A DNA stretch of 58,756 nucleotides. Origin: Bacteroidales bacterium. Lineage in GTDB: Bacteria; Bacteroidota; Bacteroidia; Bacteroidales; UBA932. Shown here piece by piece: positions 11,533-46,607 of the stretch (its first letter is position 1; every line of letters starts with the position of its first letter). The position numbers and the translations under genes are program-made. Location of the stretch: the NCBI GenBank assembly GCA_017960545.1, contig JAGCYZ010000015.1:1-58756 (forward strand). Reading direction: 5' to 3'. The notes beneath the pieces are model-generated. The model was given only the letters and a program-made list of their open reading frames with translations. It was not told where the DNA came from and made no database searches.

Positions 11533-11540
11533 TTATTTAC

Positions 11541-11548
11541 TATCTTTG
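11541..11548 (+). promoter_or_regulatory. -7 element for the S41 peptidase gene
   Basis: TATCTTTG (exact TAnnTTTG) sits 22 bases before the ATG at 11571, giving a short leader. No matching -33 TTTG is present. Confidence 0.5.
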
Positions 11549-11570
11549 CATCCTACACAATTATTGAATT

Positions 11571-13217
11571 ATGAAAAGATTCTTCTATATCATTCTTGCA
11601 ATGGCTTTGGCCTTCTCCTCCTGTGAGAAGCAGCCAGTCAACCAGAATCCCGGCGGCGGCACTACTCCAACTGGTCCCACCACTCCTCAGGAGCCGGAGA
11701 AAAACTGGACTTACTATTATGTAAACAACTTCGCCTATGACCTGATGGACACATACTATCTCTGGAAGAAAGAGATCAAGGCCCAGCTTATGGCTTGGAC
11801 AGACCAGGAAGAACCTATCAAGAAGGTGGCGTCAATCAGATACAAAGACAATTCAGGTAACGACATAGACAAATGGACCCAGGTAACGGACGATTACAAG
11901 GCATTTATGGGGGACGTGACCGGTGTCACCACCACATATGGCTACGATTTCTATGATTTCGAACAGGACAAGGAGAACACCAACAGGGTTCTCGCAACCG
12001 TTCGTTATGTCTATCCCAACAGCCCTGCCTCAGAGGCCGGCCTCAAGCGCGGAGATGTCATTGTCAAAGTCAACGGAAAGGATATTCCCATAATATGGCA
12101 GGGAACTGCCGGTTATCTGGACACAGACTTCATTTACGACCAGATGGTCTACAGCAGCAATTGCACCCTGACACTCAAGGACGGCAGCAAAGTCTCTATG
12201 ACCGCAAGGGAAATGATTGAGAATCCTGTCATTATGTACAGGGTCATCGATAACGAAAAAGGACAGAAGATAGGTTATCTCCATTACACATCTTTCACCG
12301 CCGAGTCCTGCGCTTCACTCATCGAGGCCTGCCAGTATTTCAAGTCCGAGGGCATCAAGGAACTAGTCCTTGACCTCAGGTACAACGGAGGCGGTGCCGT
12401 GGTTGCAGAGGAAGTGCTCATCTCAATGCTTGCCCCAAGGGCCAATGTAGAGGCGGGAGACATCTTTGAGACAGAGGTTTACAATACCGAGTACGCCGCT
12501 CAGATGGTCAAAATGTACGGTCCTGAGGCTGGAACCAGCAGATTATCCTTCCAGCACGACTTCAGGTTCGACGGCAAGGATTACCATTTCAACACTGAAG
12601 ATGCAAACATAGGTCTGGAGAAGATCTATGCTATTGTAACTGGAGACAGCGCTTCTGCTTCAGAAGCCCTCATCTGCTGCCTCAAGCCCTTTATGCCTGT
12701 TGTATTGGTTGGAAAACAGACTTACGGCAAATACTGCGGAGGCTATATCATTGGTTCAGACGATTATTTCCAGGACATCATTGATTATTATACGGAGAAT
12801 CACACCAATGACAGTGCAGAGGCCATTGAATTTGGAAAGAACGGCCTCAAGTATGCCAAGAACTGGGGACTTTACGTAATGTTCTCCCGCTATGCGGACA
12901 AGGACGGCGTCACCCTTTGTATGCCTGATGGAATCAAGCCGGACTATACCGCAATGGACAACCCTCAGGACGGCTTCCAGTTTGGCGACCCCAACGAGAC
13001 AATGCTCAAGACAACCCTCAGGCGCGCAGGATTCACCGTTACTGAGTCTTCAGGCTCTCAGCAGCAGGCTCCGGCAAGGTTCGATACCGGCGTAGAGATC
13101 AAGTTCCAGCGTCGTGAAAAGCCTGGTATGGTAAGGGAGCTTACTTCACTTCCAGGACATCGCCGTGATCCGCAGATACCACGGATTTCCAATGATCGGT
13201 ATACCCGGGCTGAGTAA
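11571..13217 (+). CDS. S41-family peptidase lipoprotein with PDZ domain
   Basis: The product is 548 aa with a lipoprotein signal (MKRFFYIILAMALAFSSC) and a Gly/Thr/Pro linker. A PDZ-like segment (YPNSPASEAGLKRGDVIVKV, about residues 145-165) precedes the S41 core: LDLRYNGGG, then TGDSASASEAL with the nucleophilic Ser, and a Lys in KQTYGKYCGG. This is the tricorn/CtpA fold in a surface or periplasmic lipoprotein form found widely in Bacteroidetes. The natural substrate is unknown. The last 77 bases overlap the convergent C69 peptidase gene; residues after about 522 (KPGMVREL onwards) look non-conserved, as if the original stop had been lost. Confidence 0.88.
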   Translation: MKRFFYIILAMALAFSSCEKQPVNQNPGGGTTPTGPTTPQEPEKNWTYYYVNNFAYDLMDTYYLWKKEIKAQLMAWTDQEEPIKKVASIRYKDNSGNDIDKWTQVTDDYKAFMGDVTGVTTTYGYDFYDFEQDKENTNRVLATVRYVYPNSPASEAGLKRGDVIVKVNGKDIPIIWQGTAGYLDTDFIYDQMVYSSNCTLTLKDGSKVSMTAREMIENPVIMYRVIDNEKGQKIGYLHYTSFTAESCASLIEACQYFKSEGIKELVLDLRYNGGGAVVAEEVLISMLAPRANVEAGDIFETEVYNTEYAAQMVKMYGPEAGTSRLSFQHDFRFDGKDYHFNTEDANIGLEKIYAIVTGDSASASEALICCLKPFMPVVLVGKQTYGKYCGGYIIGSDDYFQDIIDYYTENHTNDSAEAIEFGKNGLKYAKNWGLYVMFSRYADKDGVTLCMPDGIKPDYTAMDNPQDGFQFGDPNETMLKTTLRRAGFTVTESSGSQQQAPARFDTGVEIKFQRREKPGMVRELTSLPGHRRDPQIPRISNDRYTRAE

Positions 13218-14847
13218 GTCCCGCGGGAATACCCTCTGAATACTGTGAATGCCTGAAACTCCCGTCGGAGTTTTGGGCTTTTACATTTCCGTCTATGAAC
13301 TTGACCAGCAGGGTCTCCTCCAGGTCTGCCCAGTCCTGGAACTGCTGCTGGGCTGTGGATATGCTGTATTCTGTAATTATCCTGTTAGCGGAAGCCTTGT
13401 CTCCCTTGGACAGGTAGTCCAGGGCCACAAGGTCGTTCTTCTGGACCTCCCCGAACATCTGGGCGTTCTCAAAAGCGTCTATCCTCTCGCGCACGTATGC
13501 GGCCATATGGTTGTACATCTTATAGCAGGCGTTGGCCACGCGGTTGCACATCCAGAAAGCGGAGGTGGGAGAATAATGCAGCATATCGCCGTTGCCCACG
13601 CGGAAGCACTCGGGAATGTCTGAGGAAGCGGTATAGATAGGCGTCACATAAGACGTTGCGGCATCGTCGCAGCCAAACCAGATTATTCCGCCAATCTCGT
13701 CAGGGAGATATCCGCGGGCCTGGCCCACGAACCAGAATCCTGTCTGCTGGGTGGCGATGGCCCTCTCGTTGACGTAGGTCTTGCCGCCGGACTCGAACTC
13801 CATAGGCCTCCAGCGGTACGGCAGGGCGTTTCCGCCAGCTCCAATGTCCGTGGTCATATCCATAGGGGTGCCCTCGTAATGGTCGCGCATAACGTCAGCC
13901 ACGTCCTTTACGGTAATCTTGCGGGAAGGCTTCACAAAGAGAGGCATTTCGCCCTTGAGGTCATATCCCATTGCATAGTTCAGCCAGTCGCCTGCGGGGC
14001 GGGAAACCTCCTTGCCGGACTCGTCCATATAGGTGAAGACTCCGTCGCACAGGATGTTGAAGGCGGACCAGGCGCGGGCGTCGCAGCCGCGCACGGTGCC
14101 AAAGTCAAGCGGGCAGTAAGCGTCGCGGAATGAGAATTCCTCATCCTTGCCGCTGAAATAGCCCTTCTTGCGGGCGAAGGTTATCACGTCCGGGGCGTAG
14201 AGACAGTTCTCGGGATCGTTCAGGGGAAACCTTGTGATGCGGGACTGGTTTGCGTGGGCGCAGATATATCCGTCAGGAACGCGCCTTGCCACCCACACTA
14301 TTCCCTTCTCCTCCGGGCCTTTTCCAATCAAGTCCATCACCCAGGCCTCCGTTCCGTCCGCAATGGAGAAACTCTCCCCTTCTGAAGGGTAGCCGAACTC
14401 GTTTGCCAGGCTTACAATTATGTCTATGGCCTCGCGCGCCGTCCTAGCCCTCTGGAGGGTGACGTAGATAAGGGAACCGTAATCCATAACTCCGGCCGGG
14501 TCCGCAAGTTCCTCGCGTCCGCCGTAGGTGGTTTCGCCAATCACAAGCTGGTGCTCGTTCATATTTCCCACAGTCTGGTAGGTGTGGGCAATCTGCGGAA
14601 TGCTTCCCAGCGGCTTGTAGGTGTCCCACTCGCGTATAAACAGCTTGGAGCCCGCAGGCCAGTTGGCGGCCCTGTTATAGTACAGCTCGCCAAAGAGCAG
14701 ATGGGAATCCGCCGCATAGGAGACCATACAGGATCCGTCGGCGCTGGCACCCTTGGAGATGATTATGTTGGTGCAGGCATCGGACTTTGGTGTAAAGATT
14801 GCTGTAAGCATTATAGCAAACGCACAGATTGCAGTTTTCCTTATCAT
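13141..14847 (-). CDS. C69-family dipeptidase (PepD-like)
   Basis: The product is 568 aa. After a signal peptide the mature chain should begin at Cys25 (SDACTNIIISKGASADGS), the N-terminal-nucleophile Cys of the C69 family. Family segments include GETTYGGREEL and EAWVMDLIG. These enzymes cleave dipeptides released from proteins, here in the periplasm or outside the cell. Its promoter is at 14894-14901, divergent from the small secreted protein. Its 3' end overlaps the S41 peptidase gene tail to tail by 77 bases. Confidence 0.9.
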   Translation of the reverse strand: MIRKTAICAFAIMLTAIFTPKSDACTNIIISKGASADGSCMVSYAADSHLLFGELYYNRAANWPAGSKLFIREWDTYKPLGSIPQIAHTYQTVGNMNEHQLVIGETTYGGREELADPAGVMDYGSLIYVTLQRARTAREAIDIIVSLANEFGYPSEGESFSIADGTEAWVMDLIGKGPEEKGIVWVARRVPDGYICAHANQSRITRFPLNDPENCLYAPDVITFARKKGYFSGKDEEFSFRDAYCPLDFGTVRGCDARAWSAFNILCDGVFTYMDESGKEVSRPAGDWLNYAMGYDLKGEMPLFVKPSRKITVKDVADVMRDHYEGTPMDMTTDIGAGGNALPYRWRPMEFESGGKTYVNERAIATQQTGFWFVGQARGYLPDEIGGIIWFGCDDAATSYVTPIYTASSDIPECFRVGNGDMLHYSPTSAFWMCNRVANACYKMYNHMAAYVRERIDAFENAQMFGEVQKNDLVALDYLSKGDKASANRIITEYSISTAQQQFQDWADLEETLLVKFIDGNVKAQNSDGSFRHSQYSEGIPAGLTQPGYTDHWKSVVSADHGDVLEVK

Positions 14848-17066: not shown

Positions 17067-17861
17067 TTACAGCTTGTAATAACTGCCCAGTATCTTTGAG
17101 AACAAAGGTGCTGGGAGTATTTTTTTAAGCAGGACGGACAGGCGCTGCACTAAAGTGGAAACCACATAGTTGTACCTGGGATTCTTCTTGGCAACAATCT
17201 TTACAATCTTGGAGGCGAGGTAGTCCGGCTTGAGTCCGGTGGTCTCATCTTTCTCAATGCTTGCAAGGGAATCCGCGTAGGTCTTGTACACTTCATACGC
17301 CTCCGGGTCCGCCACGCTCTTGCGCTGCGCGGTGAACGCGGTGGCAAAATCGCCCGGCTCAATTACCGTAACCTTGATTCCCAAAGCCTTGGTTTCCAAG
17401 CGAAGGGCTTCGCAATATCCCTCGATAGCGAACTTGCTGGCGGAATACATCCCCTGGAAAGGCAGACCCATAAGGCCACCTATTGAACTGAAGGCTATGA
17501 TCTTGCCTCCTCCCTGCTTTCGCATTACCGGCAGCACGTAGTGAACGCAGCGGACCAAGCCCATGAAATTCACGTCCATCTGGCGCTGGGCGTCCTGGAT
17601 GGACGTATATTCCAGCGGTCCGCCTATTCCCATCCCTGCATTGTTGATGAAAACGTCTATGCGGCCCTGTGCCTCAACCACCTGGTCCACGGCAGCCTTC
17701 ACCTGAGACTCATCCTGAACGTCAGCCTTGATGTAGGTGACACCGGGGATGAACTCCTTTGCGTTGCGGTGGGTACCATAAACGGTATGGCCCGCTGCAC
17801 AGAGCTGTCGGGCCATAGCTTCTCCAAATCCGGAGGTGATTCCGGTAATGAGGATTATCAT
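17067..17861 (-). CDS. Short-chain dehydrogenase, candidate 3-ketodihydrosphingosine reductase
   Basis: The product is 264 aa: TGITSGFG (6-13), NNAG (73-76), Ser125/126 and YSASK with Tyr139 and Lys143. The C-terminal half carries a hydrophobic basic tail (LVQRLSVLLKKILPAPLF) that may sit on the membrane. It starts 4 bases after the serine palmitoyltransferase gene, so the pair is almost certainly co-transcribed. Reducing 3-ketosphinganine to sphinganine is the next step after SPT, hence the call. Specificity is inferred from context, since many SDRs share these motifs. Confidence 0.75.
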   Translation of the reverse strand: MIILITGITSGFGEAMARQLCAAGHTVYGTHRNAKEFIPGVTYIKADVQDESQVKAAVDQVVEAQGRIDVFINNAGMGIGGPLEYTSIQDAQRQMDVNFMGLVRCVHYVLPVMRKQGGGKIIAFSSIGGLMGLPFQGMYSASKFAIEGYCEALRLETKALGIKVTVIEPGDFATAFTAQRKSVADPEAYEVYKTYADSLASIEKDETTGLKPDYLASKIVKIVAKKNPRYNYVVSTLVQRLSVLLKKILPAPLFSKILGSYYKL

Positions 17862-17865
17862 ATTC

Positions 17866-19056
17866 CTATTTTATTACTCCTACTTGTCTGAATACCTTTT
17901 CTAGCCTGTCAACAGCTATGTCAACCTGCTCCCTAGTATGGGTTGCCATAAGGGCGAAACGGATAAGCACGGAATCCTGAGGTACCGCAGGGGCGATAAC
18001 CGGAGTGATGAATACTCCCTCGTCCAAGGCAAGTTTCACAATCTGGAGGGCCTTGGTGGTATCCCTTACGAACAACGGGATGATAGGAGACTGGGTGTGT
18101 CCGGTATCGAATCCGCGGGCCTTGAACTGCTCCTGTGCGTAATGGGTAACGTCCCAAAGGTTCTCAATGCGCTCCGGTTCAGTGAGCATAATGTCAATTG
18201 CCTTGCTTACTGCGGCAACGTTTGCCGGAGGCATACTCGCGCTGAAGATAAGCGCGCGGGCGTTATGCTTCAGGAAGTTCATTATGTTATGGTTTGCCGC
18301 AATGAATCCTCCCAGGGAGCCGAATGACTTGGAGAACGTACCCATTATGATGTCCACCTTGTCCGTGAGGCCAAAGTGGTCCGCGGTTCCGCGGCCGTGG
18401 TCTCCAAGGACACCGAGGGAATGGGCGTCGTCCACCATTATGTATGCGTCGTACTTCTCGCAGAGCTGGACTATTTCCGGCAGCGGGGCAATGTCTCCTT
18501 CCATTGAATAGACTCCGTCAACTACAATGAGCTTTGGAGCGTTCCTTGGGCAGATGCGGAGTTTCTTCTCCAGGCCGCGCATATCGTTGTGGGGGAACTT
18601 GAGCACCTTGGAGAATCCCAGGCGGCTTCCGTCAATGATGGAAGCGTGGTCCAGGGAGTCCAGAAGCACGAAGCCGTCCCTGAAGGACAGGGCGGAGATG
18701 GCTCCGAGGTTGGACTGCATTCCGGTACTGAACGTAACGGCCTCTTCCTTGCCTACAAGCTTTGCAAGTTTCTCTTCAAGTTCAAGGTGGATGTCCAGGG
18801 TTCCGTTAAGGAAACGGGATCCCGAACAACTTGTTCCGTATTTCTGTATGGCTGCTATGGCTGCCTCCTTGAGACGGGGATCATCTGAAAGTCCCAGGTA
18901 AGAATTGGATCCGAACATAAGGACGTCCCTTCCCTGCATCTTTACAACGGGGTCCTGGCCGGACTCTATGGGACGGTAATATGGATATATGCCCAGGGCT
19001 TTGACTTCATCTGCGCGGGTATATTTTGCGCAAACGTCATCTATTATTCTTTTCAT
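17866..19056 (-). CDS. spt: Serine palmitoyltransferase
   Basis: The product is 396 aa, a soluble alpha-oxoamine synthase. Key residues are DHAS with His137 (stacks on PLP), DDAHS (Asp210, His212), and TFSKSFGS with Lys243, the PLP Schiff-base lysine. The reading closely follows the known Bacteroides SPT: YYRPIESGQDP near the start and FGSNSYLGL. It joins serine and an acyl thioester into 3-ketosphinganine, the first step of sphingolipid synthesis. BioF and KBL are relatives, but the adjacent SDR and the N-terminal sequence favour SPT. It is driven by TATCTTTG at 19105-19098, with a perfect palindrome in the leader. Confidence 0.9.
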   Translation of the reverse strand: MKRIIDDVCAKYTRADEVKALGIYPYYRPIESGQDPVVKMQGRDVLMFGSNSYLGLSDDPRLKEAAIAAIQKYGTSCSGSRFLNGTLDIHLELEEKLAKLVGKEEAVTFSTGMQSNLGAISALSFRDGFVLLDSLDHASIIDGSRLGFSKVLKFPHNDMRGLEKKLRICPRNAPKLIVVDGVYSMEGDIAPLPEIVQLCEKYDAYIMVDDAHSLGVLGDHGRGTADHFGLTDKVDIIMGTFSKSFGSLGGFIAANHNIMNFLKHNARALIFSASMPPANVAAVSKAIDIMLTEPERIENLWDVTHYAQEQFKARGFDTGHTQSPIIPLFVRDTTKALQIVKLALDEGVFITPVIAPAVPQDSVLIRFALMATHTREQVDIAVDRLEKVFRQVGVIK

Positions 19057-36776: not shown

Positions 36777-37172
36777 TTATTTTTTCTCCAGGGAACGGAG
36801 ACCTGTCTTGACGTTCTCTATGAGGGCGTCGGAGGACATTGTGGCGCCGGAAACGGCGTCCACCTCGGCCTCCAGAGCCTGCTGGACGGTCATACCCTTG
36901 AAAGCGTCCAGCACTTTCACCGCCATCTCGTAGAAGGAAGGCGTCTCATCGCTGGGAAGGGCTTCTACAGATTCAATCTTTCCGCCAACAATGGTAATCT
37001 TCACCGGAGTTGCGGCGTGATGCCCCAACACATCCTTGCACATCTCGGTGGTGTCAATCACCTTTTTATCTTCCGCCTGTTTCTGGGCAGCTGCCGGGAA
37101 AACTGTAAAAGCTACGGATGCCAGCGCAATAAGCGCTACAATCGCAATCAATATTTTAGAAGTCTTTTTCAT
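36777..37172 (-). CDS. Exported FMN-binding domain protein
   Basis: The product is 131 aa. A signal peptide or anchor (IAIVALIALASVAFTVF) precedes an FMN_bind domain with DAVSGATMSSDALIENV (about residues 103-119). The SGAT Thr is where ApbE attaches FMN covalently in this family. It probably acts as a small extracytoplasmic electron carrier. No ApbE gene is in the window. TAACTTTG at 37199-37192 is the likely -7 element. The large lipoprotein gene follows after 3 bases. Confidence 0.88.
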   Translation of the reverse strand: MKKTSKILIAIVALIALASVAFTVFPAAAQKQAEDKKVIDTTEMCKDVLGHHAATPVKITIVGGKIESVEALPSDETPSFYEMAVKVLDAFKGMTVQQALEAEVDAVSGATMSSDALIENVKTGLRSLEKK

Positions 37173-37225: not shown

Positions 37226-38005
37226 CTATTTATTAGGAAGGGTGACCTTGAACGAAAGTCCCGCCGCAGGGGTGAAGCCTGCGTGAGCAGGAGAAGGGGC
37301 GCTGGCAACGAAAGGTTCCAACTTGACATCAAAGCCCGCCAGCCCTCTTTGCGCCCTCAGGTCCTGGACATACATATTCTTGACCTTGGCGATGCGTACC
37401 GCGTCAACAATATTCCAGATTTCCAGTCCTAAGTTGGCCAGTACACAAATCACGGAAACAGTAGAAATGTCATAGTCCGTAACGTAGATTCCACCGTTAG
37501 ATCCTGTGGTATAATGGACTTCTACTCCATTGCTTGCTATGCTTGACAGCAGTCCGCTTCCAAAGAAGAAACCGGCGGCACGCCACCACTCTCCTTCTAT
37601 TGCCTGACCCAGTCCGGGGATGACAAAAGAAGCAAAGCCAAGCCAGCCCGGGCTGAATCTGTCATCATATTGGCGAATATACATCTTAGGGTTGTAAATA
37701 TGCTTCAACTCCTTGTATCTCAGGCCTTCAGGAACCGGACCTTCAGAATAGGCCGTATGTACAGGAACACCGTCAAAGACATCCTTTTCTCCGTTCTCGT
37801 ATCTGATCATAACAACCTGGGCCGTGCTGATCGAATATGTGGGGCCGTCGAGATTGCTGAATCTTTTATATTTTATCATCAAAGGCGAAACCTCCTCCAC
37901 CTTTGCCTGGATATCCTCTCCGCTGCGGGTGGTGATAATATCCTGTGCCCGGGAAACCATCACGCTCCCCAGCATCATTACTGCTATAAATATCAATCTT
38001 TTCAT
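37226..38005 (-). CDS. Exported protein with DUF5683-like membrane segment
   Basis: The product is 259 aa from the ATG at 38005. The longer reading from 38038 is ruled out because the -7 box TATATTTG is at 38033-38026. A signal peptide (MKRLIFIAVMMLGSVMVSRA) leads to a small domain (TTRSGEDIQAKVEEVSPLMI). A later segment, SFVIPGLGQAIEGEWWRAAG, matches the PGLGQ signature of DUF5683 membrane proteins, followed by hydrophobic stretches. The role is unknown. Its upstream side faces the left REP pair at 38063. Confidence 0.75.
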   Translation of the reverse strand: MKRLIFIAVMMLGSVMVSRAQDIITTRSGEDIQAKVEEVSPLMIKYKRFSNLDGPTYSISTAQVVMIRYENGEKDVFDGVPVHTAYSEGPVPEGLRYKELKHIYNPKMYIRQYDDRFSPGWLGFASFVIPGLGQAIEGEWWRAAGFFFGSGLLSSIASNGVEVHYTTGSNGGIYVTDYDISTVSVICVLANLGLEIWNIVDAVRIAKVKNMYVQDLRAQRGLAGFDVKLEPFVASAPSPAHAGFTPAAGLSFKVTLPNK

Positions 38006-38025
38006 TGCTCTCATTATTTTCTCTG

Positions 38026-38033
38026 CAAATATA
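38026..38033 (-). promoter_or_regulatory. -7 element for the DUF5683-like gene
   Basis: TATATTTG on the minus strand, exact to TAnnTTTG, about 20 bases before the start at 38005. It decides against the in-frame ATG at 38038. Confidence 0.5.
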
Positions 38034-38062
38034 ATCATCTCCCACCTTATTTGAAATACCCC

Positions 38063-38161: not shown

Positions 38162-39025
38162 TCAAAGACTCTCTAGCATCTTCGCCACCGCTTCGTAGGG
38201 GAGGCCTGTCACCCTGGCCATCTGATTCACATTCGAGGCGAAGCGGAAGTGCAGTTGGCGGAGCACTTCGGCTTGCTCTTCGGGCAAAAGATCCTTGACC
38301 GAAGCCTTTCTATAGAGGGTCTGGCAGAGATCCTCCACTACGGGGTAGATAGTCTGATCCCTGAAGACAGGACCGGAAGAGTCCGGTGCGTTGAGCAGGG
38401 ACCGGGCTTTCGAGGAGTTGTTCAGGTAGTAGTTCATCCTCTTTGGGGTTCTGAATACGGACTCCACGAAGCCAGTTGGTACGTACGACCCAGGGATTAT
38501 GAATCCTTCCTCCCCCACTAAGAGTCCTGCCGGGGCGTCCAGTTTGCTGTGTGTAATCCTGTATCGGGCTCGGGCGGAAAGACTCTCAAGGAGAATTCCC
38601 CTGGGCTTGGCTACTTTGAAGAAAGTGTTGCCTGTGCCCCAGGGGTAATCACCTGGGTTCGGGCAAATATTAGCCGCAACGCTGTTCATCTGCACATAAG
38701 CGATGGCTCGGCAGAGAGAATCCTCGGAAACATCCACTCTTCTGATATCCACTTTATTCCTCCGGAGACTCTTGGCAATCCCGTATTTCCGGCGGGTATA
38801 AAAAGAAAAGTGCCTTTTGAATTCGTTAATGAATTCCAGTGCCTGGCCCCTGGTGCATTCCAGTATGAAATGTACGTGATTGGACATCAGGATGAAAGCT
38901 ATCACCTTAACTCCGAACATTGCTGCGATGATAGGGATAGCGTTCATCGCCGTTTTAAAGTCTTCCTGGTCTTTGAACCATATCTTGTCTTCAAGATGGT
39001 CAGTAGTAACTAGATAGAATTCCAT
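38162..39025 (-). CDS. REP-associated tyrosine transposase (RAYT, Y1/HUH family)
   Basis: The product is 287 aa. The HUH motif is SNHVHFIL (His50, His52). The catalytic Tyr is Tyr110 in AIAYVQMNSVAANI, followed by CPNPGDYPWGTG, the exact layout of TnpA-REP proteins (YxxxNPV...PEDYPWSS). The extra C-terminal region (about 180-287) probably binds DNA and ends in a helix-turn-helix-like segment (NQMARVTGLPYEAVAKML). RAYTs cut and join single-stranded REP hairpins. This gene is framed by matching palindrome pairs at 38063-38149 and 39144-39230. It is complete and apparently functional. Confidence 0.92.
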   Translation of the reverse strand: MEFYLVTTDHLEDKIWFKDQEDFKTAMNAIPIIAAMFGVKVIAFILMSNHVHFILECTRGQALEFINEFKRHFSFYTRRKYGIAKSLRRNKVDIRRVDVSEDSLCRAIAYVQMNSVAANICPNPGDYPWGTGNTFFKVAKPRGILLESLSARARYRITHSKLDAPAGLLVGEEGFIIPGSYVPTGFVESVFRTPKRMNYYLNNSSKARSLLNAPDSSGPVFRDQTIYPVVEDLCQTLYRKASVKDLLPEEQAEVLRQLHFRFASNVNQMARVTGLPYEAVAKMLESL

Positions 39026-39290: not shown

Positions 39291-40526
39291 TCAGTGCGCG
39301 GATTTGAGCTTGCGGGTGAGGAGGTTGGCGCTGAGGACGATGCCCAGGACGATGGCGAGGGTGATCTTGACGGAGCTGAAACCTGCGGCAAGGGCGGATT
39401 CCATCTGGGTGGAGACTACGAAGTAGGAGCTCCAGAAGACGCCGGCGCCGGGAATCAGCGGAAAGATTCCGCATATGAGGAATACGGTGCTGGGGCACTT
39501 GAAGCGATGTGCGGCGGCCAGGGACAGGAGCGCCACCAAAGTGGCTGCGAAGAATGTCCCGCCCGCCGGGCCCAGCCCAAGGTATCGGGTGAACACCAGG
39601 TACGTCAGCCATCCGGCCATACCCACCACTCCGCACTGGAGATAGAATCTGCGCGGAACGCCGAACAGAACGGCAAAGGAGGCCGTACCCAAGAACGATG
39701 CCGCCAACTGTATGGGAAGCAATGCGGTGACCGGATCCGTAATGGTCCCGGTAAGATGGATCATCTCACCTTGGATGGCGCTCTGTGCAATGAAGGCAAG
39801 GCACACTCCAACGGCTATGCACAGGAACACCATCATTGCGTCCAGCAGGCGCGTGATGCCTGCCAGGTAATCTTCTCCGGCGATATCCCTAAGGCCATTG
39901 GTGAAAGCCACTCCCGGAATTAGCGGAATAAGCGTTCCCACCATCATATTACCAAGGTTCTGCCCGAAGCCAAAACTGTTGAACAGTATGCAAAGCGCCG
40001 TACCGAGCGCACCTGCAAAGATGTTGCTGAGCGGCTTGGAAAGCGACGGGACGCACACCAGGACCAGGAACAGATACACCAGCGTCCCGGCAACAAGCGC
40101 TGCCGCGCAGTCAAGCAGGCTGCCGCCGAAGATGGCGCAGAATGCGCCACTTCCCAGCGCCGCGCCTGCGAACTGCTCCCACAGCGGCTTCTCCGGCATC
40201 TGCCGTATCTCCTCCACCTTCCTTTCCGCCTCCTCCAGCGTGTACTTCCCCGCGGAGACGTCGCGTGAGAACTGGTTTATGTCCACCACCTTGTCCAGGC
40301 GCGCTCCCTTGATTGGGATGAACTTGACGTTGGCATAGGCCTTACCTGTTGTGAATATACCGTTGCTGAGGACGAAGAAATTCTCGTTCTGCTCGCCAAA
40401 GTGGGTGGCGATCCTCTCCATTGTATCCTCTACACGGGAGATCTCCGCACCGTTCTCAAGCAGCACGTGTCCGGCCTCGGAAGCCAGTGAAAGTATCCTT
40501 GCAGAAGTCTCTTGGCTGTTTATCAT
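39291..40526 (-). CDS. ThrE-type threonine/serine exporter family protein
   Basis: The product is 411 aa. The N-terminal soluble region (SEAGHVLLENGAEISRVEDT) is the ThrE_1 signature. About ten membrane helices follow, with PLIPGVAFTNGLRDI (ThrE_1) and, near the end, CGIFPLIPGAGVFW (ThrE_2). Both halves are in one chain. Such proteins export small amino acids. It is the last gene of the seven-gene sulfonolipid operon, 3 bases after the 96-aa membrane protein. Export of cysteate or a related amino acid is an attractive but unproven role. Confidence 0.88.
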   Translation of the reverse strand: MINSQETSARILSLASEAGHVLLENGAEISRVEDTMERIATHFGEQNENFFVLSNGIFTTGKAYANVKFIPIKGARLDKVVDINQFSRDVSAGKYTLEEAERKVEEIRQMPEKPLWEQFAGAALGSGAFCAIFGGSLLDCAAALVAGTLVYLFLVLVCVPSLSKPLSNIFAGALGTALCILFNSFGFGQNLGNMMVGTLIPLIPGVAFTNGLRDIAGEDYLAGITRLLDAMMVFLCIAVGVCLAFIAQSAIQGEMIHLTGTITDPVTALLPIQLAASFLGTASFAVLFGVPRRFYLQCGVVGMAGWLTYLVFTRYLGLGPAGGTFFAATLVALLSLAAAHRFKCPSTVFLICGIFPLIPGAGVFWSSYFVVSTQMESALAAGFSSVKITLAIVLGIVLSANLLTRKLKSAH

Positions 40527-40529
40527 AGT

Positions 40530-40820
40530 TTATTTTTTGCGTCCTCCCCTGCGGTCAACCCATATCCAAAGCAGATACATCAGCGCTCCCCAGACAAGGA
40601 ACAGCAGTACATAGACCCAGAAAGGCAGGGTTGCGGTGTATTCATTCCTGTTGACGTATTTTTCAAAATTGGGGATGTCCGCATAATAATAGGCCCCGGC
40701 CCCGAAATCAAGGTCGTCCTGGAGGCCGAGCCCATTTGCCATTATATAAATGACCGTGGCAAGGACGGCTATGCCCACAACGGCAAAAGCCACCCTTGCC
40801 ACAGTCTTTTTCTTAGCCAT
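40530..40820 (-). CDS. Small two-helix membrane protein in the sulfonolipid operon
   Basis: The product is 96 aa with helices at about 8-28 and 67-88, an outward loop rich in Tyr and Asp (DDLDFGAGAYYYADIPNFEK), and basic ends (MAKKKTVAR, DRRGGRKK). No family is recognised. Its start codon follows the YeiH-family stop with no gap and its stop is 3 bases before the ThrE-type gene, so it belongs to the operon. It may be an accessory subunit of one of the neighbouring transporters; this is inference. Confidence 0.7.
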   Translation of the reverse strand: MAKKKTVARVAFAVVGIAVLATVIYIMANGLGLQDDLDFGAGAYYYADIPNFEKYVNRNEYTATLPFWVYVLLFLVWGALMYLLWIWVDRRGGRKK

Positions 40821-42158
40821 TTAGTTCAGAACGGGAATTGGGAATACCTTTCCTGAAAGCAGGAACCATACGGCAAACAGAGTGAGGGCTATGTTGAACA
40901 ACTGGCCCACAACATACAGCCACAGAACCTTTCCGCCCTGCATCTGCTTTACAATCTCCTTGAAGTTGGTGTCAAGGCCGATGCTTACGAATGCAAGCAC
41001 GAACGCCCAGTTCTTGTACTGGTCAAGCACCTTGTTTATTGCGCTCACCTGGTCAGCTCCGGCAAGAGGCTGGATGATGAAGGATGCAATGAGGGAGGCT
41101 ACAAAGAAACCGATGATGAACTTGGGGAAGCGGGTCCAAATCTCGCCTGCGCCAACCTTCTGGGTTCCGGTCTTGTCAACCTTGGTCGCGAAGAACAGGG
41201 CAACGAAGAAGGCGATGAAACCGATGAGGATGTTCTGGATCATCTTTACAAGCACGGCGGCCTTCTCGGCCTCTCCGCCAAGTGCGGAACCGGCTACTGC
41301 AACTGCTCCGGTGCTGTCAACGGTACCTCCGATGAGGGCTCCTCCCATAATGGGGGACATCTGGGCCCAGCGGATGAGCATAGGCTCGAACACCATCATA
41401 AGGACGGTGAAGATAATGGAGATGGACACTACCATTGTAAGGTCTGTCTTCTTGCAGTTTGAAGCGGCGCCGGTGGCGATGGCTGCGGAAGTACCGCAGA
41501 CAGAAGTCGCCGCCGCCATGGTGATGACCAGGGGCTTGTTGTCAAGCTTGAGGACCTTTGTTCCGAACCACCACATAAAGATGATGACGATAGGGGTGAC
41601 TATCCAGGCGATTCCAAGTCCGTAAAGGCCGAACTTTGCAATGTTGGAGAACAGTACGGAGAATCCCATTATCACCAGACCGGTCTTGATGTAGAACTCA
41701 GTCTTTACGGCAGGCTTGAGCCAGTCAGGAACCCCAACGGTGTTGGAAATAAGAAGTCCCACGATCAATGCCCAGAAAGCCCACTCAAGATAACGGTTGA
41801 GAGTGTACTCGGCGCTGATAAGGCGCACGATGACAGCAAGGACGAACAACCCGAGGAAAGCCGGGATGTACTTCTTCACATTGCCGCCCATAAGCTTGAC
41901 TCCAATGGTGAAAAGGACGCCAAGGACGACAACTGTACGCAAGAGTTTCCACCAGAAAGCACCTGTTGCCAACTGGCTACCCAGAGACGGCAGACTTGCC
42001 GCTTTAGCTTCTCCCAGCCCGAATGTGCTGAAACTGAGCGCGGAGAAGTTAAATGCACCTGTAAGGACTGCTACGCAGCCGATAAGGATTACGATGAATC
42101 CGATCCATACGGCCAGCCAGTCTTCAGTGCTGAAAAGTTTAGATTTTTGTTTGCTCAT
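40821..42158 (-). CDS. YeiH-family putative sulfate exporter (UPF0324)
   Basis: The product is 445 aa from the ATG at 42158 (MSKQKSKLFSTEDWL); an earlier in-frame ATG lies inside the upstream gene. About ten to twelve helices are present. Family segments include AATSVCGTSAAIATG, ALIGGTVDSTGAVAVAGSAL and, near the end, FVLAFVSIGLDTNFKEI. A family member exports sulfate during taurine breakdown in some bacteria. In this operon, sulfite is the expected substrate of cysteate synthase, so a sulfite, sulfate or sulfonate exporter fits. It starts 2 bases after the SDR stop. Confidence 0.88.
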   Translation of the reverse strand: MSKQKSKLFSTEDWLAVWIGFIVILIGCVAVLTGAFNFSALSFSTFGLGEAKAASLPSLGSQLATGAFWWKLLRTVVVLGVLFTIGVKLMGGNVKKYIPAFLGLFVLAVIVRLISAEYTLNRYLEWAFWALIVGLLISNTVGVPDWLKPAVKTEFYIKTGLVIMGFSVLFSNIAKFGLYGLGIAWIVTPIVIIFMWWFGTKVLKLDNKPLVITMAAATSVCGTSAAIATGAASNCKKTDLTMVVSISIIFTVLMMVFEPMLIRWAQMSPIMGGALIGGTVDSTGAVAVAGSALGGEAEKAAVLVKMIQNILIGFIAFFVALFFATKVDKTGTQKVGAGEIWTRFPKFIIGFFVASLIASFIIQPLAGADQVSAINKVLDQYKNWAFVLAFVSIGLDTNFKEIVKQMQGGKVLWLYVVGQLFNIALTLFAVWFLLSGKVFPIPVLN

Positions 42159-42160
42159 AT

Positions 42161-42943
42161 CTACATAGATTTGATTTTCATCGAAAGCCGGGCGCACAGT
42201 CCCGGGAAGAAACGTTTGATATAGACCATTATGAGTTCCTTGCGGCCCACGAGCACCTCGCGGCGGCCTTTGTCAAAGGCGTGCGCGATCTTTCGCGCAG
42301 CGTCCTCGGGACTGAGGCCGCCCGCCTGCCCGGGATCCATCTTCCCGTGCTGCGCGCCGCCCTTGTCCAGGGCATAGAACGATATGTTGGTCCTGACCCT
42401 GCCGGGGCACACCAGCGTCACGCGGATGCCGCGCGGGGCGTACTCCGCCCGCAGGGTTTCAAAGAAACCGTAAAGGGCGTGTTTGGACGAACTGTACGCG
42501 CAGCGCAGCGGGAAGCCGAAGCGCCCCGCTATGGAGGTGGTGGCGGCTATATGCCCGCCGCCGGCCTCCAGCATCCGCGGCAAAATGGCCTTTGCCATAG
42601 CCACGGGCGCGAAGTAGTTCACTTCCATAATGCGGCGCACCATTTCCATTGAGGTGTCCTCAACGGTGGTGCGCTGGCTGATTCCTGCGTTGCAGTACAT
42701 CAGGTCAATGCCTCCGAACGCATCCCAGGCCTGCTGCACAAGCCCCGGGATGCCCTGGGCGTCAAGCAGGTCGAAAGGGAGCGCCTTGGCGCCGGCGGCC
42801 CCGAATCCCAGGCACTTGTCGGCCACGGCCTCCAGTTTCTCCTGTTCATTGGAAGTAACCACCACATAGGCTCCGCGCTTAGCGTAGAGATATGCACAGG
42901 CTTCTCCTATACCTGACGATGCTCCGGTAATCCAGACTTTCAT
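42161..42943 (-). CDS. Short-chain dehydrogenase, candidate 3-ketocapnine reductase
   Basis: The product is 260 aa: TGASSGIG (6-13), NAG (85-87), Ser137 and YSSSK with Tyr150 and Lys154. The region after the catalytic Lys (LRAEYAPRGIRVTLVCPGRV) and the hydrophobic basic C-terminus (VYIKRFFPGLCARLSMKIK) resemble membrane-associated ketosphinganine reductases. Its position directly after cysteate synthase (no gap) in an operon with the acyltransferase suggests that it reduces 3-ketocapnine to capnine. Specificity is inferred from context. Confidence 0.8.
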   Translation of the reverse strand: MKVWITGASSGIGEACAYLYAKRGAYVVVTSNEQEKLEAVADKCLGFGAAGAKALPFDLLDAQGIPGLVQQAWDAFGGIDLMYCNAGISQRTTVEDTSMEMVRRIMEVNYFAPVAMAKAILPRMLEAGGGHIAATTSIAGRFGFPLRCAYSSSKHALYGFFETLRAEYAPRGIRVTLVCPGRVRTNISFYALDKGGAQHGKMDPGQAGGLSPEDAARKIAHAFDKGRREVLVGRKELIMVYIKRFFPGLCARLSMKIKSM

Positions 42944-44227
42944 CTAAAACAGATTCTTTACTTTTTTTACTACCTGCTCCGCATCCAGGTCCGGTTCCAG
43001 AACCAGGTCCGGCTGCTTGAGCACAAAGCCTTTGCTTATTGCACCAAGCGTTCCTCCGCCGGTACAGTTAAGCATAATGTATTCGTCTTTCTTGACCTTG
43101 CCTTCAGCGACGGCCTTGGCAAGTGCTGATACTGCGACGCACGCAGCCGGCAACAGGTCATAACCCTCCAGGTTGCGGAACAGCAGAAGCCAGAATACTA
43201 TGTCGTTGTTGTCGGCCAGATAGACGTCTCCCCCACTTTCCTTGAGCGTGTCAAAAAGGCCTCCGGCAATGCCGTAAGGGGGTTTCCTGTTGGAAAGTAC
43301 CTTGGCAAGGATGACCTCCGCCTGGCGGCGTCCCTCCTCGGGTTCCAGGTCGACCAGCTTGCGGGATTCCTGTTTCCAGGAGTCGTACATAAGGGAGAAC
43401 GGAGCGTTCTGGGCCACGTAAACGCGCATATGGTTTTCGCCGAAGCGTCCGTCAGCCGCCAGCCTCTGCGCGTTTTCCCAGGCCGCTATGGCTCCGGTTC
43501 CGGAGCCTACCGCCTGGAAATAAGCGTCGGGTATGCGCCCCACTTTCTCAGCAAAGCTGAGGATGGTGGTGCCCATACCGTCGCGCCTCGCCACGTTCTT
43601 GGCTCCTCCTTCCAGGAAGAAGCCGGGATCCGTGGCCAGCTTTTCGCCAAGGGCGATGGCATCGTAATAATCGCATCCGTGCGGCACCGCGACAAGCTTG
43701 ACGCATTTGTCAAGCGGCTTGCGGAACCACAGGTCGTGGCAGCTGTCCAGAGGAACGCATATCACTACCGGGATGCCGTTGTCCGAGCACACCTGGGCGA
43801 ACGCCCTTGCGGTGTTTCCGGCAGACTGCACCACCAGCACGCGCTTTTCCTTCTTTTCCATACGGGCAAGGACGCTGTAGGCCTCGGTCTCCTTGAAGGA
43901 GCAGGTCTTCATCTTTGCCCCTATCTTGGGGTTCCAGCCGGAGAATGTTATATACAGGTTCTCCAGTCCCAGATACCTTGCAAGTCCCTTGGACCTGTAT
44001 GTAACAGGGGCGCTGGAGTGCTTGAGAGTGCGTTTGATGGGCATCCAGTTGGCATAACGGTATATTCCGTCAAGCTCTTTGCGCACTGTGAATTCACGGT
44101 TTTCGTACACGGCCCTTACCAGCGAGGGTTCAGGGCTCTGGGGGTCCGCCATAGTCCAGCCTTCATCTTCAAGAAGACGTCCGGTGGCCACGTTTATCAG
44201 ACCGTATTTTGTGGGTTCGAATCTCAT
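42944..44227 (-). CDS. Cysteate synthase (threonine-synthase-like PLP enzyme)
   Basis: The product is 427 aa. The PLP lysine is Lys112 in SFKETEAY. The N-terminal zinc-ribbon-like part seen in threonine synthase is not evident; instead there is a segment YANWMPIKRTL and the loop TFSGWNPKIGAKMKTCSFKE, characteristic of cysteate synthases. QSAGNTARAF binds substrate and CTGGGTLGAISKG binds the PLP phosphate. It would join O-phosphoserine with sulfite to make L-cysteate, the head-group precursor of sulfonolipids. It is flanked by the acyltransferase (3-base gap) and the SDR. Confidence 0.88.
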   Translation of the reverse strand: MRFEPTKYGLINVATGRLLEDEGWTMADPQSPEPSLVRAVYENREFTVRKELDGIYRYANWMPIKRTLKHSSAPVTYRSKGLARYLGLENLYITFSGWNPKIGAKMKTCSFKETEAYSVLARMEKKEKRVLVVQSAGNTARAFAQVCSDNGIPVVICVPLDSCHDLWFRKPLDKCVKLVAVPHGCDYYDAIALGEKLATDPGFFLEGGAKNVARRDGMGTTILSFAEKVGRIPDAYFQAVGSGTGAIAAWENAQRLAADGRFGENHMRVYVAQNAPFSLMYDSWKQESRKLVDLEPEEGRRQAEVILAKVLSNRKPPYGIAGGLFDTLKESGGDVYLADNNDIVFWLLLFRNLEGYDLLPAACVAVSALAKAVAEGKVKKDEYIMLNCTGGGTLGAISKGFVLKQPDLVLEPDLDAEQVVKKVKNLF

Positions 44228-44230
44228 AGT

Positions 44231-45496
44231 TTATTTGATGATGGCCATGTCAGGGATATCTTTATCGTACTCTCCGCGGGCGAGGCGCTCCTTGATGTCG
44301 CGGAACGCGTCAAGCGTGCGCTCCACGTCTTCCATACTGTGAGCGGCGGTAGGGATGATCCTGAAAATGAGCATTCCCGGAGGAATTACGGGATATGTTA
44401 CAATTGAGCAGAAGATATGGTAGTTCTCCCTGAGGTCCACCGCGATGTTGGAAGCCTGGTTGATGCCGCAAGCCAGGTGAACCGGGGTCACGCAGGCCTC
44501 TGCGGGGCCAATCTCATATCCCAGCTCTCGGAAGCCTTCCTGCAGGCGGCGCGTAACTTTCCAGAGTTGCGCGCGGCGCTCGTCGCCTTCCGGGCTGTCG
44601 ATAATCTCAAGGCGCTTGATGCAGCCTTCCACTATTGGCATAGGCAGAGCCTTGGCGTACATCTGGGAGCGCATATTGTAGCGCAGGTAGGTGATGATTT
44701 CCTTCTTGGAAGCCACAAATCCGCCGATGGTGGCCATTGACTTGGCGTAGGCGCCAATGTACAGGTCAACGCCGTCCATTACGCCAAAGTGCTCGGAAGT
44801 TCCCCTTCCGTGAGGCCCCATCACGCCAAAGCCGTGGGCATCGTCAATCATAAAGCGGAAGTTGTACTTCTCCTTGAGGGCCACTATCTGGTCCAGGATT
44901 CCAAGGGCTCCGGTCATTCCAAAGACTCCTTCGGTGATTACCAGCACGCCTCCGCCGTTCTCGTCCGCCACCTTGCAGGCGCGGGCCAGGACTTTCTCGC
45001 AGTCAACGATGTTGTTGTGGCGGAATTTGTATTTCTCTCCAATGTGGAGACGGATTCCGTCAAGGAGGCAGGCGTGGCACTCGGCATCGTAAACGATGAC
45101 GTCATGACGTCCCACAAGGGCGTCGATCGTGGATACGATTCCCTGGTATCCGAAGTTGTACAGGAAAGCGGCCTCCTTGCACTCGAACTCTGCGAGCATA
45201 CGCTCGAACTTCTCGTGCAGCGCGGTGTGGCCGGTGAGCATACGGCTTCCCATAGGGTAAGCCATACCCCAGCGGGCGGCACCCTCGGCATCCGCCTTGC
45301 GGATTTCCGGGTGGTTTGCCAGTCCGAGGTAGTTGTTCAGGCTCCAGCACAATACTTCCTGGCCGTTGAACCTCATATGGGGGCCAAGTTCTCCCTCAAG
45401 TTTAGGGAAGGCGAAATAACCTTCGGCTTTCTCGCGGTACTGGCCTATGGGGCCGCCGGTAGAAGCCATGATTTTCTCAAAAATGTCTTTATACAT
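44231..45496 (-). CDS. sulA: Cysteate acyltransferase (SPT-like, sulfonolipid synthesis)
   Basis: The product is 421 aa, an alpha-oxoamine synthase. PLP contacts are His141 (ECHAC), DDAHGFG (218-224) and Lys252 in AYAKSMATIGG. It differs from the SPT at 17866-19056 in its longer N-terminus (ASTGGPIGQYREKAEGYFAF), MGSRMLTGHT, and the AKSM motif in place of SKSF. These match the cysteate-fatty-acyl transferases of Alistipes and Flavobacterium. It condenses cysteate with an acyl donor to 3-ketocapnine. It lies 3 bases before cysteate synthase and 7 bases after the VOC protein. Confidence 0.88.
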   Translation of the reverse strand: MYKDIFEKIMASTGGPIGQYREKAEGYFAFPKLEGELGPHMRFNGQEVLCWSLNNYLGLANHPEIRKADAEGAARWGMAYPMGSRMLTGHTALHEKFERMLAEFECKEAAFLYNFGYQGIVSTIDALVGRHDVIVYDAECHACLLDGIRLHIGEKYKFRHNNIVDCEKVLARACKVADENGGGVLVITEGVFGMTGALGILDQIVALKEKYNFRFMIDDAHGFGVMGPHGRGTSEHFGVMDGVDLYIGAYAKSMATIGGFVASKKEIITYLRYNMRSQMYAKALPMPIVEGCIKRLEIIDSPEGDERRAQLWKVTRRLQEGFRELGYEIGPAEACVTPVHLACGINQASNIAVDLRENYHIFCSIVTYPVIPPGMLIFRIIPTAAHSMEDVERTLDAFRDIKERLARGEYDKDIPDMAIIK

Positions 45497-45503
45497 ATTA
45501 ATC

Positions 45504-46577
45504 TTACTTGATTCTTTCTCTTGAAACCAGACCCATAAGGCGGAACAGGAACTTTGGAAGCTCTTTACGGGGATCCCGCTTCTTAAGGTCTATGAACCAT
45601 CCCAGTTTCTTTACAACCGGGACTCTTTCCGTCTCTACGAACTCTATGAGGGTACCGTCCGGATCCTCTATGTAGGTGAAGCGGCCCGCGGCGTCTCCCA
45701 TATTGAATTCCTGGCCTTCCGGACAGCTGTCAACGGTGAAGGGATGGCCCAGGGCGGCGCAGTGCGCTCCCAGCGCGTCCGTGCCGCACACGTCGAAGCA
45801 AATCTGGATGAATCCGGGGTCTCCCCACTGCCGCCCCTCGAAAATCTTGCGGGGCGCGTGGTCCAGCGCCTGCACCAGTTCTATGGTGTTCTTTCCCATA
45901 AGGCCCGCGAAGGCGCCCTTGCCCTGGCCTGAAGGGGCCAGGAGCACACGCCTGTAGCGCTCCGTGCAGCCAGGCATTATGTTCCAGTCGTCAAAGATAC
46001 CTATGGAGTCATACAGGAGAGTGTCATAGCCCAGGACGTCCTTGTAGAAAAGGATTGAGGCGTCCATATCCGAAACGCCCACGACGGCGCCGAAGATGCC
46101 GCCGTTCATACGGTTCTGCTCAATGTACACGTCCTTGTTTTCAACAACCTGGAAACAGTTGCCATAAAGGTCTTTGACATAGAAGCAGGGCGTTCCGTCC
46201 GGCAGCGTGGAAATGTCTCCTACGCCATCCCATTTTTCCCTTATAATGCTGTGGAAAGCCTCCACGTCCCGGCTTTTGATTTTGGCGGCGAATATGCCAA
46301 GGTCACCCACGGAAATGTCAAAATCCGCACTGACCGGTTTCCTCTGGGAGTACTGCCAAATTTCCAGACCGCCGCCGCCTTGAAGGTTTACGGCTATGCA
46401 AGCGTGACGTTTCTGTGCCTGGCCTCCGGTGTATGGAAGCATCCTTTCTGCAACAGTATCGTCTTCCAGAATTTTGATGTCCATTCCGAACATCTCAATG
46501 AACCAGTTCCAGGATTTGCGGAAATTGACGGTTCCCACACCCACCTGCTGGATGCCTGTTATAGAGAAATCTGCCAT
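45504..46577 (-). CDS. VOC-superfamily (HPPD-like) protein heading the sulfonolipid operon
   Basis: The product is 357 aa with two tandem VOC/glyoxalase-fold halves (about 1-150 and 160-335), as in 4-hydroxyphenylpyruvate dioxygenase. Half boundaries show FSITGIQQVGVGTV and GGIFGAVVGVSDMDASILF. The expected His metal ligands look replaced: Gln in GIQQVGV, no His in GIFGAVV, and FIQICFDV where HPPD has QHIAF. A terminal Glu (DPDGTLIEFVE) remains. It may bind a different metal or none. It is first in the seven-gene operon, starting from -7 TATCTTTG at 46607-46600. A role in lipid or cysteate modification is inferred only. Confidence 0.82.
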   Translation of the reverse strand: MADFSITGIQQVGVGTVNFRKSWNWFIEMFGMDIKILEDDTVAERMLPYTGGQAQKRHACIAVNLQGGGGLEIWQYSQRKPVSADFDISVGDLGIFAAKIKSRDVEAFHSIIREKWDGVGDISTLPDGTPCFYVKDLYGNCFQVVENKDVYIEQNRMNGGIFGAVVGVSDMDASILFYKDVLGYDTLLYDSIGIFDDWNIMPGCTERYRRVLLAPSGQGKGAFAGLMGKNTIELVQALDHAPRKIFEGRQWGDPGFIQICFDVCGTDALGAHCAALGHPFTVDSCPEGQEFNMGDAAGRFTYIEDPDGTLIEFVETERVPVVKKLGWFIDLKKRDPRKELPKFLFRLMGLVSRERIK

Positions 46578-46599: not shown

Positions 46600-46607
46600 C
46601 AAAGATA
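46600..46607 (-). promoter_or_regulatory. -7 element of the sulfonolipid operon
   Basis: TATCTTTG on the minus strand, exact to TAnnTTTG, about 23 bases before the VOC gene start at 46577. It lies in the 72-base divergent spacer shared with the S9 peptidase gene; no -33 match is evident. Confidence 0.5.

Follow-up and report, generated by a model that had tools for sequence, protein, structure and literature searches.

A run of seven minus-strand genes at positions 39291–46577 of contig JAGCYZ010000015.1 (GenBank assembly GCA_017960545.1, a Bacteroidales gut bacterium of the UBA932 lineage) is probably an operon for the capnine base of sulfonolipids that carries its own sulfite transport, with the membrane protein pair YeiH-TM2 most likely importing sulfite for the cysteate synthase (CYS) encoded in the same run. 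The whole stretch that was analysed, 58,756 nucleotides long, is referred to as the window. Cysteate synthase needs sulfite. In the proposed scheme, CYS would join O-phosphoserine and sulfite to L-cysteate, a cysteate-C-fatty acyltransferase (CFAT) would convert cysteate and an acyl group on acyl carrier protein (ACP) to 3-ketocapnine, and a short-chain dehydrogenase/reductase (SDR) would reduce 3-ketocapnine. YeiH and its small partner TM2 would form a two-part transporter bringing in sulfite for CYS. The two remaining proteins would be accessory: the amino-acid exporter ThrE may relieve a surplus of cysteate or serine-type compounds, and the VOC-family protein may act on the ketone intermediate. 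All these functions are assigned by homology and genomic context.

The genes follow one another in the order VOC, CFAT, CYS, SDR, YeiH, TM2 and ThrE, with intergenic gaps of 7, 3, 0, 2, 0 and 3 bases, figures that assume the ATG at 42158 as the start of YeiH; the list of open reading frames (ORFs) opens this gene at a GTG at 42197, which overlaps SDR. A preliminary description of this DNA had reported seven minus-strand genes with gaps of 0–7 bases, and ORFs, coordinates, order and strand agree with it. Its family assignments likewise held up in profile and structure comparisons (TIGR03844, 7u7h/28eh, PF03601, PF06738/PF12821, PF00106 and PF00903), and its reading of the run as a sulfonolipid-base operon (CYS, CFAT and the probable ketocapnine reductase SDR) is supported, as are its inclusion of a transporter in the operon and its sulfite theme.

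CYS (42944–44227) scores 440.9 bits against TIGR03844, over the curated cut-off of 324.9, and matches the cysteate synthase structure 9k3c of the PDB at E 9.4e-153. From these matches we infer an archaeal-type cysteate synthase that converts O-phosphoserine and sulfite to cysteate. CFAT (44231–45496) matches the cysteate-C-fatty acyltransferase structures 7u7h and 28eh in phmmer searches (E 5.7e-163 and 3.5e-162), and its Lys282 aligns with Lys281 of SulA, whereas an SPT-like protein encoded elsewhere in the window has alanine at that position. Lysine in SulA versus alanine in SPT is described as a distinguishing residue (PMC9304779). Homology thus predicts for CFAT the activity of a SulA/CapB-type cysteate acyl-ACP transferase. 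The SDR protein (42161–42943) reaches 171 bits with PF00106 and 208.1 bits with NF004825, just below the cut-off of 215, and proteins 56–74% identical to it are encoded near CFAT in two genomes (G138 and G203; G and L numbers denote genomes and loci throughout) and in horse metagenome-assembled genomes (MAGs). It is a probable 3-ketocapnine reductase, judging by SDR family membership and its place beside CFAT.

VOC (45504–46577), the first gene, encodes a two-domain glyoxalase-fold protein of 357 amino acids with 42.2 bits to PF00903. Its AlphaFold model has a predicted local distance difference test (pLDDT) score of 71.8, against 43 or less for the other four models, and its best Foldseek matches are 4huz (E 2.8e-13) and GLOD4 (9csj, E 1.2e-12). 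Assigning a function from the fold was rejected, since the model matches many two-domain glyoxalase-fold proteins. VOC also stands directly upstream of CFAT in L061, L062, L179–L181, L183, L184, L271, L272, L275, L280, L286, L296 and L302.

The enzymes resemble those of the capnine pathway of Alistipes, Chryseobacterium and Capnocytophaga (Cys/CapA, CFAT/SulA/CapB, KCR/CapC) in the archaeal-type cysteate synthase, the SulA-like lysine and the SDR. For A. finegoldii and C. gleum, a published study describes reductase genes that are scattered and unclustered with cfat and Cys (PMC11211663), whereas the window holds a single run together with a transporter pair, VOC and ThrE. The SPT-like gene of the window (17866–19056, minus strand; NF047600 633.6 bits, cut-off 640) is directly followed by a 3-ketodihydrosphingosine-reductase-like SDR gene (17067–17861, minus strand; NF049977 306.8 bits, cut-off 400), and the genome may therefore make sphingolipids besides sulfonolipids, two syntheses that a review considers possibly mutually exclusive (PMC10191378).

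YeiH (40821–42158), the proposed sulfite transporter of the YeiH/PSE family, scores 167.6 bits with PF03601 (gathering cut-off 24.5). Its model shows extra N-terminal helices at residues 12–33 and 66–89, ahead of the PF03601 core; added N-terminal helices are a feature of the PSE_2 form (PMC8396727). In a comparison aimed at the CPA/AT-type transporter fold, Foldseek found no structure matching the YeiH model at E 0.001. TM2 (40530–40820) is a two-helix membrane protein of 96 amino acids for which neither Pfam nor NCBIfam gave a match, and its loop is conserved, reading DFGAGAYYYADIP in most members. YeiH lies directly upstream of TM2 in all 80 named loci, which were kept from 357 relatives found by TM2 and some of which are the same DNA as genus loci; a few of the YeiH matches are partial. 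Likewise, TM2 adjoins YeiH of type 1 in every locus read, 22 of them in the window's genus and all 8 examined elsewhere in the order, and among the loci read YeiH of type 2, about 34–41% identical, comes without TM2. The two proteins of the window thus form a constant pair, and the two-helix protein is not the bystander it had been taken for.

ThrE (39291–40526), the last gene, passes the cut-offs of PF06738 (217.9 bits) and PF12821 (122.3 bits) and fails the equivalog model NF047720 (79.5 bits, cut-off 550). It is present in L178 (the same as L274), L271, L272, L273 and L275, and a 52% identical ThrE is encoded nearby in the horse MAG loci L280 and L286, where an opposite-strand ORF of 163 amino acids separates it from TM2. 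As most loci have no ThrE beside YeiH-TM2, its candidacy as a core part was rejected, and it is regarded as a local addition. The preliminary description had treated two exporters as a unit. YeiH instead comes with TM2 and may be an importer, and ThrE joins it only in the closest kin and, behind the opposite-strand ORF, in the two horse MAGs.

YeiH keeps company with the lipid enzymes well beyond the run itself. Many of the genomes compared are MAGs, 58–100% complete in the genus draw and 78% in the case of the window genome. In the draw of 81 genus genomes, YeiH was counted as type 1 from 70% identity upward and as type 2 at 37–39%. It occurs in 50 of the 55 that carry CYS versus 3 of the 26 that do not (Fisher 2e-12), and among the 36 that are at least 90% complete in 28/29 versus 0/7 (1e-6). 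The three genomes with YeiH and no CYS all carry CFAT and are 77–83% complete; with CYS and CFAT taken together, YeiH is found in 53 of 60 genomes that have either and in none of the 21 that have neither (CFAT counted at E 1e-180 or better, 32–37% matches excluded). Across 393 genomes of the order, CYS accompanies YeiH in 25/33 cases versus 80/360 for the others (1e-9). Eight genomes of the order have YeiH without CYS: three carry PALPx, a second pyridoxal phosphate enzyme treated below (two of these with CFAT as well), and five carry CFAT. YeiH lies at most 12 kb from CYS, in differing gene orders, in seven of the 50 same-genus genomes with both (7e-7 versus random placement at p 0.01, uncorrected for kinship of genomes and contig breaks), and in G103 the matches to a YeiH homologue and to PALPx are 155 bases apart.

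The same pair is found in another phylum. The 12 loci assigned to Clostridia by title encode a YeiH 67–73% identical to that of the window, and because of this identity the pair has probably been transferred between phyla. In 9 of these 12 loci a sulfite reductase gene lies about 0.5–10 kb from the pair, with two qualifications: in L334 the gene is incomplete, standing at the end of the locus, and L336 and L339 resemble each other so closely that they scarcely count as independent. The loci without one are L341 (none in 20 kb), L322 and L348 (about 5 kb of sequence each). The reductase is of the AsrC kind, over the cut-off for NIR_SIR and at 160.6 bits below the TIGR02912 cut-off of 324.1. Genes for TusA (8 loci), ThiF and JAB (7) and siroheme synthesis (3 to 5) are also held by the Clostridia loci, and none of the 12 gave a match to CysD, CysN or CysH. 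Lachnospiraceae and relatives (L289, L336, L346 and others) carry YeiH-TM2 near a small sulfite reductase. By contrast, no sulfite reductase lies near the pair in any of 68 Bacteroidales-type loci, which were classed by title except for L337, classed by taxonomy. Given the proximity to a sulfite-consuming enzyme in most of the Clostridia loci, together with the co-occurrence described above and the experimental link of YeiH to sulfite in Salmonella (PMC12880088), sulfite is fairly likely to be the cargo of YeiH-TM2. The window's YeiH shares PF03601 and a link to sulfite with known members of the YeiH/PSE family (Salmonella YeiH, Hden_0834 of H. denitrificans and SuyZ of Paracoccus) and differs from them in belonging to a divergent subfamily, in its constant partner TM2 and in its genomic tie to sulfite-consuming enzymes.

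In relatives, CYS can also stand behind a different set of genes. Five genes, HdrC1, B1, A, C2 and one for a 609-amino-acid protein, lie directly upstream of CYS in L070–L073, L180, L183, L292, L296 and L302, which include another genus of the same family; the set is packed between SDR and CYS in L180 (at 8735–13650) and L296, and L074 gave matches only for A, C2 and the last gene. The last protein has Fe-S and CCG domains and a probable membrane part. Among genus genomes, HdrB1 is at most 12 kb from CYS in 13 of the 35 with both, and it occurs in 37 of the 60 with CYS or CFAT versus none of the 21 without (2e-7). The short HdrA aligns over residues 5–329 of 337 (E 8.8e-61) with 6tjr, which we take to be the sHdrA of H. 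denitrificans, and with longer HdrA chains over residues 94–331 at best. sHdr oxidises sulfane sulfur to sulfite and is described in two types, C1B1AHC2B2 (type I) and C1B1AHB3 with etfAB (type II; PMC11582611). The related loci, the window not being among them, share with it the gene order C1-B1-A-C2 and the short HdrA. They show only C1-B1-A-C2-M and fit neither cluster type, H and etfAB having been sought at the locus only; because the set has no H gene and ends in a different subunit, we do not file it as sHdr. By gene order and HdrA length, the set upstream of CYS resembles the sulfite-forming sHdr. In the 55 genus genomes with CYS, 23 have both YeiH type 1 and HdrB1, 19 have YeiH only, 12 HdrB1 only and one neither (p 0.02, uncorrected for kinship), so that the two are somewhat exclusive and tend to replace each other.

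The distribution of possible sulfite sources bears on the direction of transport. The window genome gave no match to PF01507 (CysD/CysH) and no HdrB1, which are found in 17 and 37, respectively, of the 81 genus genomes, and this fits an outside source of sulfite. Every one of the 55 genus genomes with CYS has at least one of YeiH, HdrB1 and CysH, and 19, the window's included, have YeiH alone; the length of the match and the reading of one locus served to separate CysH from CysD, and weak partial PF01507 matches, such as those in G003 and G450 among the 19, were not counted. Uptake is most likely the best-fitting direction, ahead of export but not far. Several points weigh against import of sulfite for CYS. 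YeiH falls below the cut-off of TIGR00698 (83.6 versus 232.6 bits), which marks a divergent subfamily, and the fold class leaves the direction unfixed. Published work favours export: known YeiH-type proteins are described as probable sulfite exporters (H. denitrificans; PMC12423496, PMC11582611), and in Salmonella YeiH confers sulfite resistance and is called its primary driver (PMC12880088). With the genome 78% complete, gaps in the assembly may account for the lack of CysH or of an Hdr set, and thiosulfate or sulfonate cleavage could be another source of sulfite. Kinship among genomes is ignored in the co-occurrence tests, which makes their p-values too small. Finally, 80 of the 105 genomes of the order with CYS show no YeiH at E 1e-30, so YeiH is not required in general.

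Export of surplus sulfite, with YeiH-TM2 as a safety valve for a sulfite pool kept for cysteate synthesis, is a rival reading that we regard as rather unlikely. A Salmonella yeiH deletion is sulfite-sensitive (PMC12880088), and in H. denitrificans, where YeiH is called a probable sulfite exporter, sHdr makes sulfite that YeiH and TauE excrete, with yeiH induced 526-fold by thiosulfate (PMC12423496, PMC11582611); HdrB1 is likewise present in 31 of the 50 genus genomes that have both YeiH and CYS. Set against this are the 19 genomes with CYS, the window's among them, in which YeiH comes without HdrB1 or CysH and no inner sulfite source was found, and the tendency of YeiH type 1 and HdrB1 to replace each other. 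Moreover, YeiH is missing from all 21 genus genomes that lack both CYS and CFAT, where sulfite stress should matter as well, and in Clostridia the pair sits near an enzyme that consumes sulfite.

The cargo could also be a sulfur compound other than sulfite (sulfate, a sulfonate or cysteate, for example), in which case the tie to sulfite would be indirect. The family name, putative sulfate exporter, speaks for this, as do sulfonate-type ABC genes near the pair in L321, L334 and L344 (SsuC/TauC-like permease and ATPase), an SsuA-family binding protein over its cut-off in L334, and the Paracoccus relative SuyZ, which belongs to cysteate dissimilation (PMC11582611). Yet it is sulfite, not sulfate or sulfonate, that CYS and sulfite reductase have in common, and the Clostridia loci lack matches to CysD, CysN and CysH near the pair; a different cargo therefore seems improbable. 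Least probable is that general gene shuffling left the transporters beside lipid genes to which they are unrelated. In 44/53 genomes CYS and CFAT, and in 43/50 CYS and YeiH, do not share a contig at a distance of 12 kb or less (contig breaks can hide some cases), and ThrE joins in few lineages, as accidental neighbours would. However, the co-occurrence holds without adjacency, adjacency recurs with different gene orders, and the same pair has a sulfite context in another phylum.

PALPx occupies the CYS slot in the horse MAGs (L280:2968–4215 and L286:3145–4392). It is a threonine-synthase-like protein of 415 amino acids, 22–23% identical to CYS where aligned, and its best NCBIfam model, threonine synthase, gives 145.3 bits, so that it stays below both cut-offs (303, and 324.9 for TIGR03844). 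It has the PALP fold in common with threonine synthase and TIGR03844 proteins and is set apart by its position in the CYS slot, often beside CFAT. At E 1e-70 it was found in 67 of 378 genomes of the order (39–61% identity), none of which has CYS (5e-11; the CYS list came from the draw of 393, and a lineage split alone could give the same exclusion). CFAT is present in 58 of these 67 genomes versus 277/393 overall. PALPx lies 14–239 bases from CFAT in eight genomes, about 20 bases away in G019 (L016), and about 1–5 kb away in four more. In G203, from another family, CFAT-PALPx-SDR-VOC stand together with genes of the Hdr type, namely C1, C2 and the beginning of the final one; Hdr A and B1 were not seen at this locus. 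Because it never occurs with CYS and often adjoins CFAT, PALPx is a candidate for a further cysteate synthase, as judged against the archaeal type. CapA, another cysteate synthase, is related to cystathionine beta-synthase. The two types in print are CapA and the archaeal one (PMC10191378). CYS and PALPx are both missing from 119 of the 277 genomes of the order with CFAT, so the two do not account for all cases. More tentatively, and with some doubt, YeiH-TM2 could be a two-part sulfite importer common to sulfonolipid makers and sulfite-reducing rumen Clostridia across phyla, with CYS of anaerobic Bacteroidales fed either by YeiH-TM2 or by a membrane-tied sHdr-like complex that provides sulfite within the cell for lipid rather than energy, and with PALPx as a separate cysteate synthase.

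The same seven genes in the same order were found on the MAG contigs L271, L272 and L275, and parts of the run on L273 and L274, the latter being the same DNA as contig L178 of G001. Within the genus, the order VOC-CFAT-CYS-SDR-YeiH-TM2-ThrE is that of the window and, on two contigs, of G001. G003 and G456 have VOC-CFAT-SDR-CYS-YeiH-TM2, and G461 has the same with the Hdr-like set between SDR and CYS. Clustered variants lack SDR in G424 and G435 (G435 also VOC) or YeiH in G431 and G426, and other genus genomes have CYS alone or behind the Hdr set, with YeiH-TM2 apart. The horse MAGs L280 and L286 read VOC-CFAT-PALPx-SDR-YeiH-TM2. In G012 there are two cysteate synthases, one behind the Hdr set on contig C26 (L070) and one alone on contig C54 (L058).

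CYS (TIGR03844) was detected in 105 of 393 genomes of the order; in the genus draw 55 of 81 genomes gave a match, and 54 of these pass the cut-off. CYS lies at most 12 kb from CFAT in 9 of the 53 same-genus genomes with both, a count from which contig breaks can hide some cases. The CYS loci first fetched numbered 60, of which 15 came from the genus (14 genomes) and 45 from outside it (out of 102 genomes with CYS there). Homologues of the other window genes stood beside CYS in two of the 60, L061 and L062, both in the genus; the fetched stretches of the 45 outside held no window homologue except CYS, apart from a 30% CFAT-type match in L105. An order-wide conserved seven-gene sulfonolipid cluster was accordingly rejected (0/45). 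Conservation beside CYS, expected from the preliminary description, stands in part: YeiH lies 12 kb or less from CYS in only 7 of 50 same-genus genomes and was beside it in none of the 45 loci outside, while VOC, SDR, YeiH and TM2 do recur with CFAT or CYS in related operons.

In another family, too, CFAT is accompanied by VOC and SDR. In a CFAT tree of 37 chosen rows, the clustered CFATs group with those of other families and the horse MAGs, apart from 15 CFATs of the split type that belong to the genus itself (both sides have supports of 100/99; the midpoint root serves only to draw the tree; four of the other-family CFATs are not clustered). The tree suggests transfer between families or an old duplication. 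Where CFAT stands away from CYS, a different SDR, 30–34% identical, adjoins it in 13 of 14 loci read (L198–L211).

Upstream of VOC, a candidate promoter, TATCTTTG (46600–46607, minus strand), fits the Bacteroidales -7 element, whose consensus is TAnnTTTG, and lies 22 bases before the VOC start codon. A promoter and terminator scan, which seeks sigma-70-type sites, gave nothing usable. The next gene upstream of VOC, at 46650 and in the opposite orientation, encodes an S9 peptidase. Just downstream of the run lies a gene for an IS200-like (Y1) transposase-family protein (38162–39025, minus strand), and related ORFs are found near the YeiH loci L186, L190, L271, L275, L295 and L327, perhaps as a trace of movement. 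Further downstream, genes for a protein of unknown function (37226–38038, minus strand) and an FMN-binding-domain protein (36777–37172, minus strand) also follow ThrE in L271 and L272, and conservation of the neighbourhood in close kin therefore reaches beyond the seven genes.

The enzymes, the PF03601 family and ThrE are of known kinds. Within the reach of searches of the open-access literature, what is new is their packaging with a transporter pair and the variants with Hdr genes or PALPx around it; no description of such a layout was found there, in agreement with the preliminary description. Sulfonolipids are immune-active membrane lipids of gut Bacteroidota. The origin of the sulfite used for their cysteate seems not to have been raised as a question: the word "sulfite" is absent from the main text of the sulfonolipid papers PMC9304779, PMC11211663 and PMC10191378. 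From the operon and its relatives come three parts that can each be tested, namely YeiH-TM2 as transporter, the Hdr-like set, and PALPx as one more candidate for cysteate synthase. The small membrane protein family TM2 gains a candidate function, and YeiH, so far seen as a detoxifier, may move into biosynthesis.

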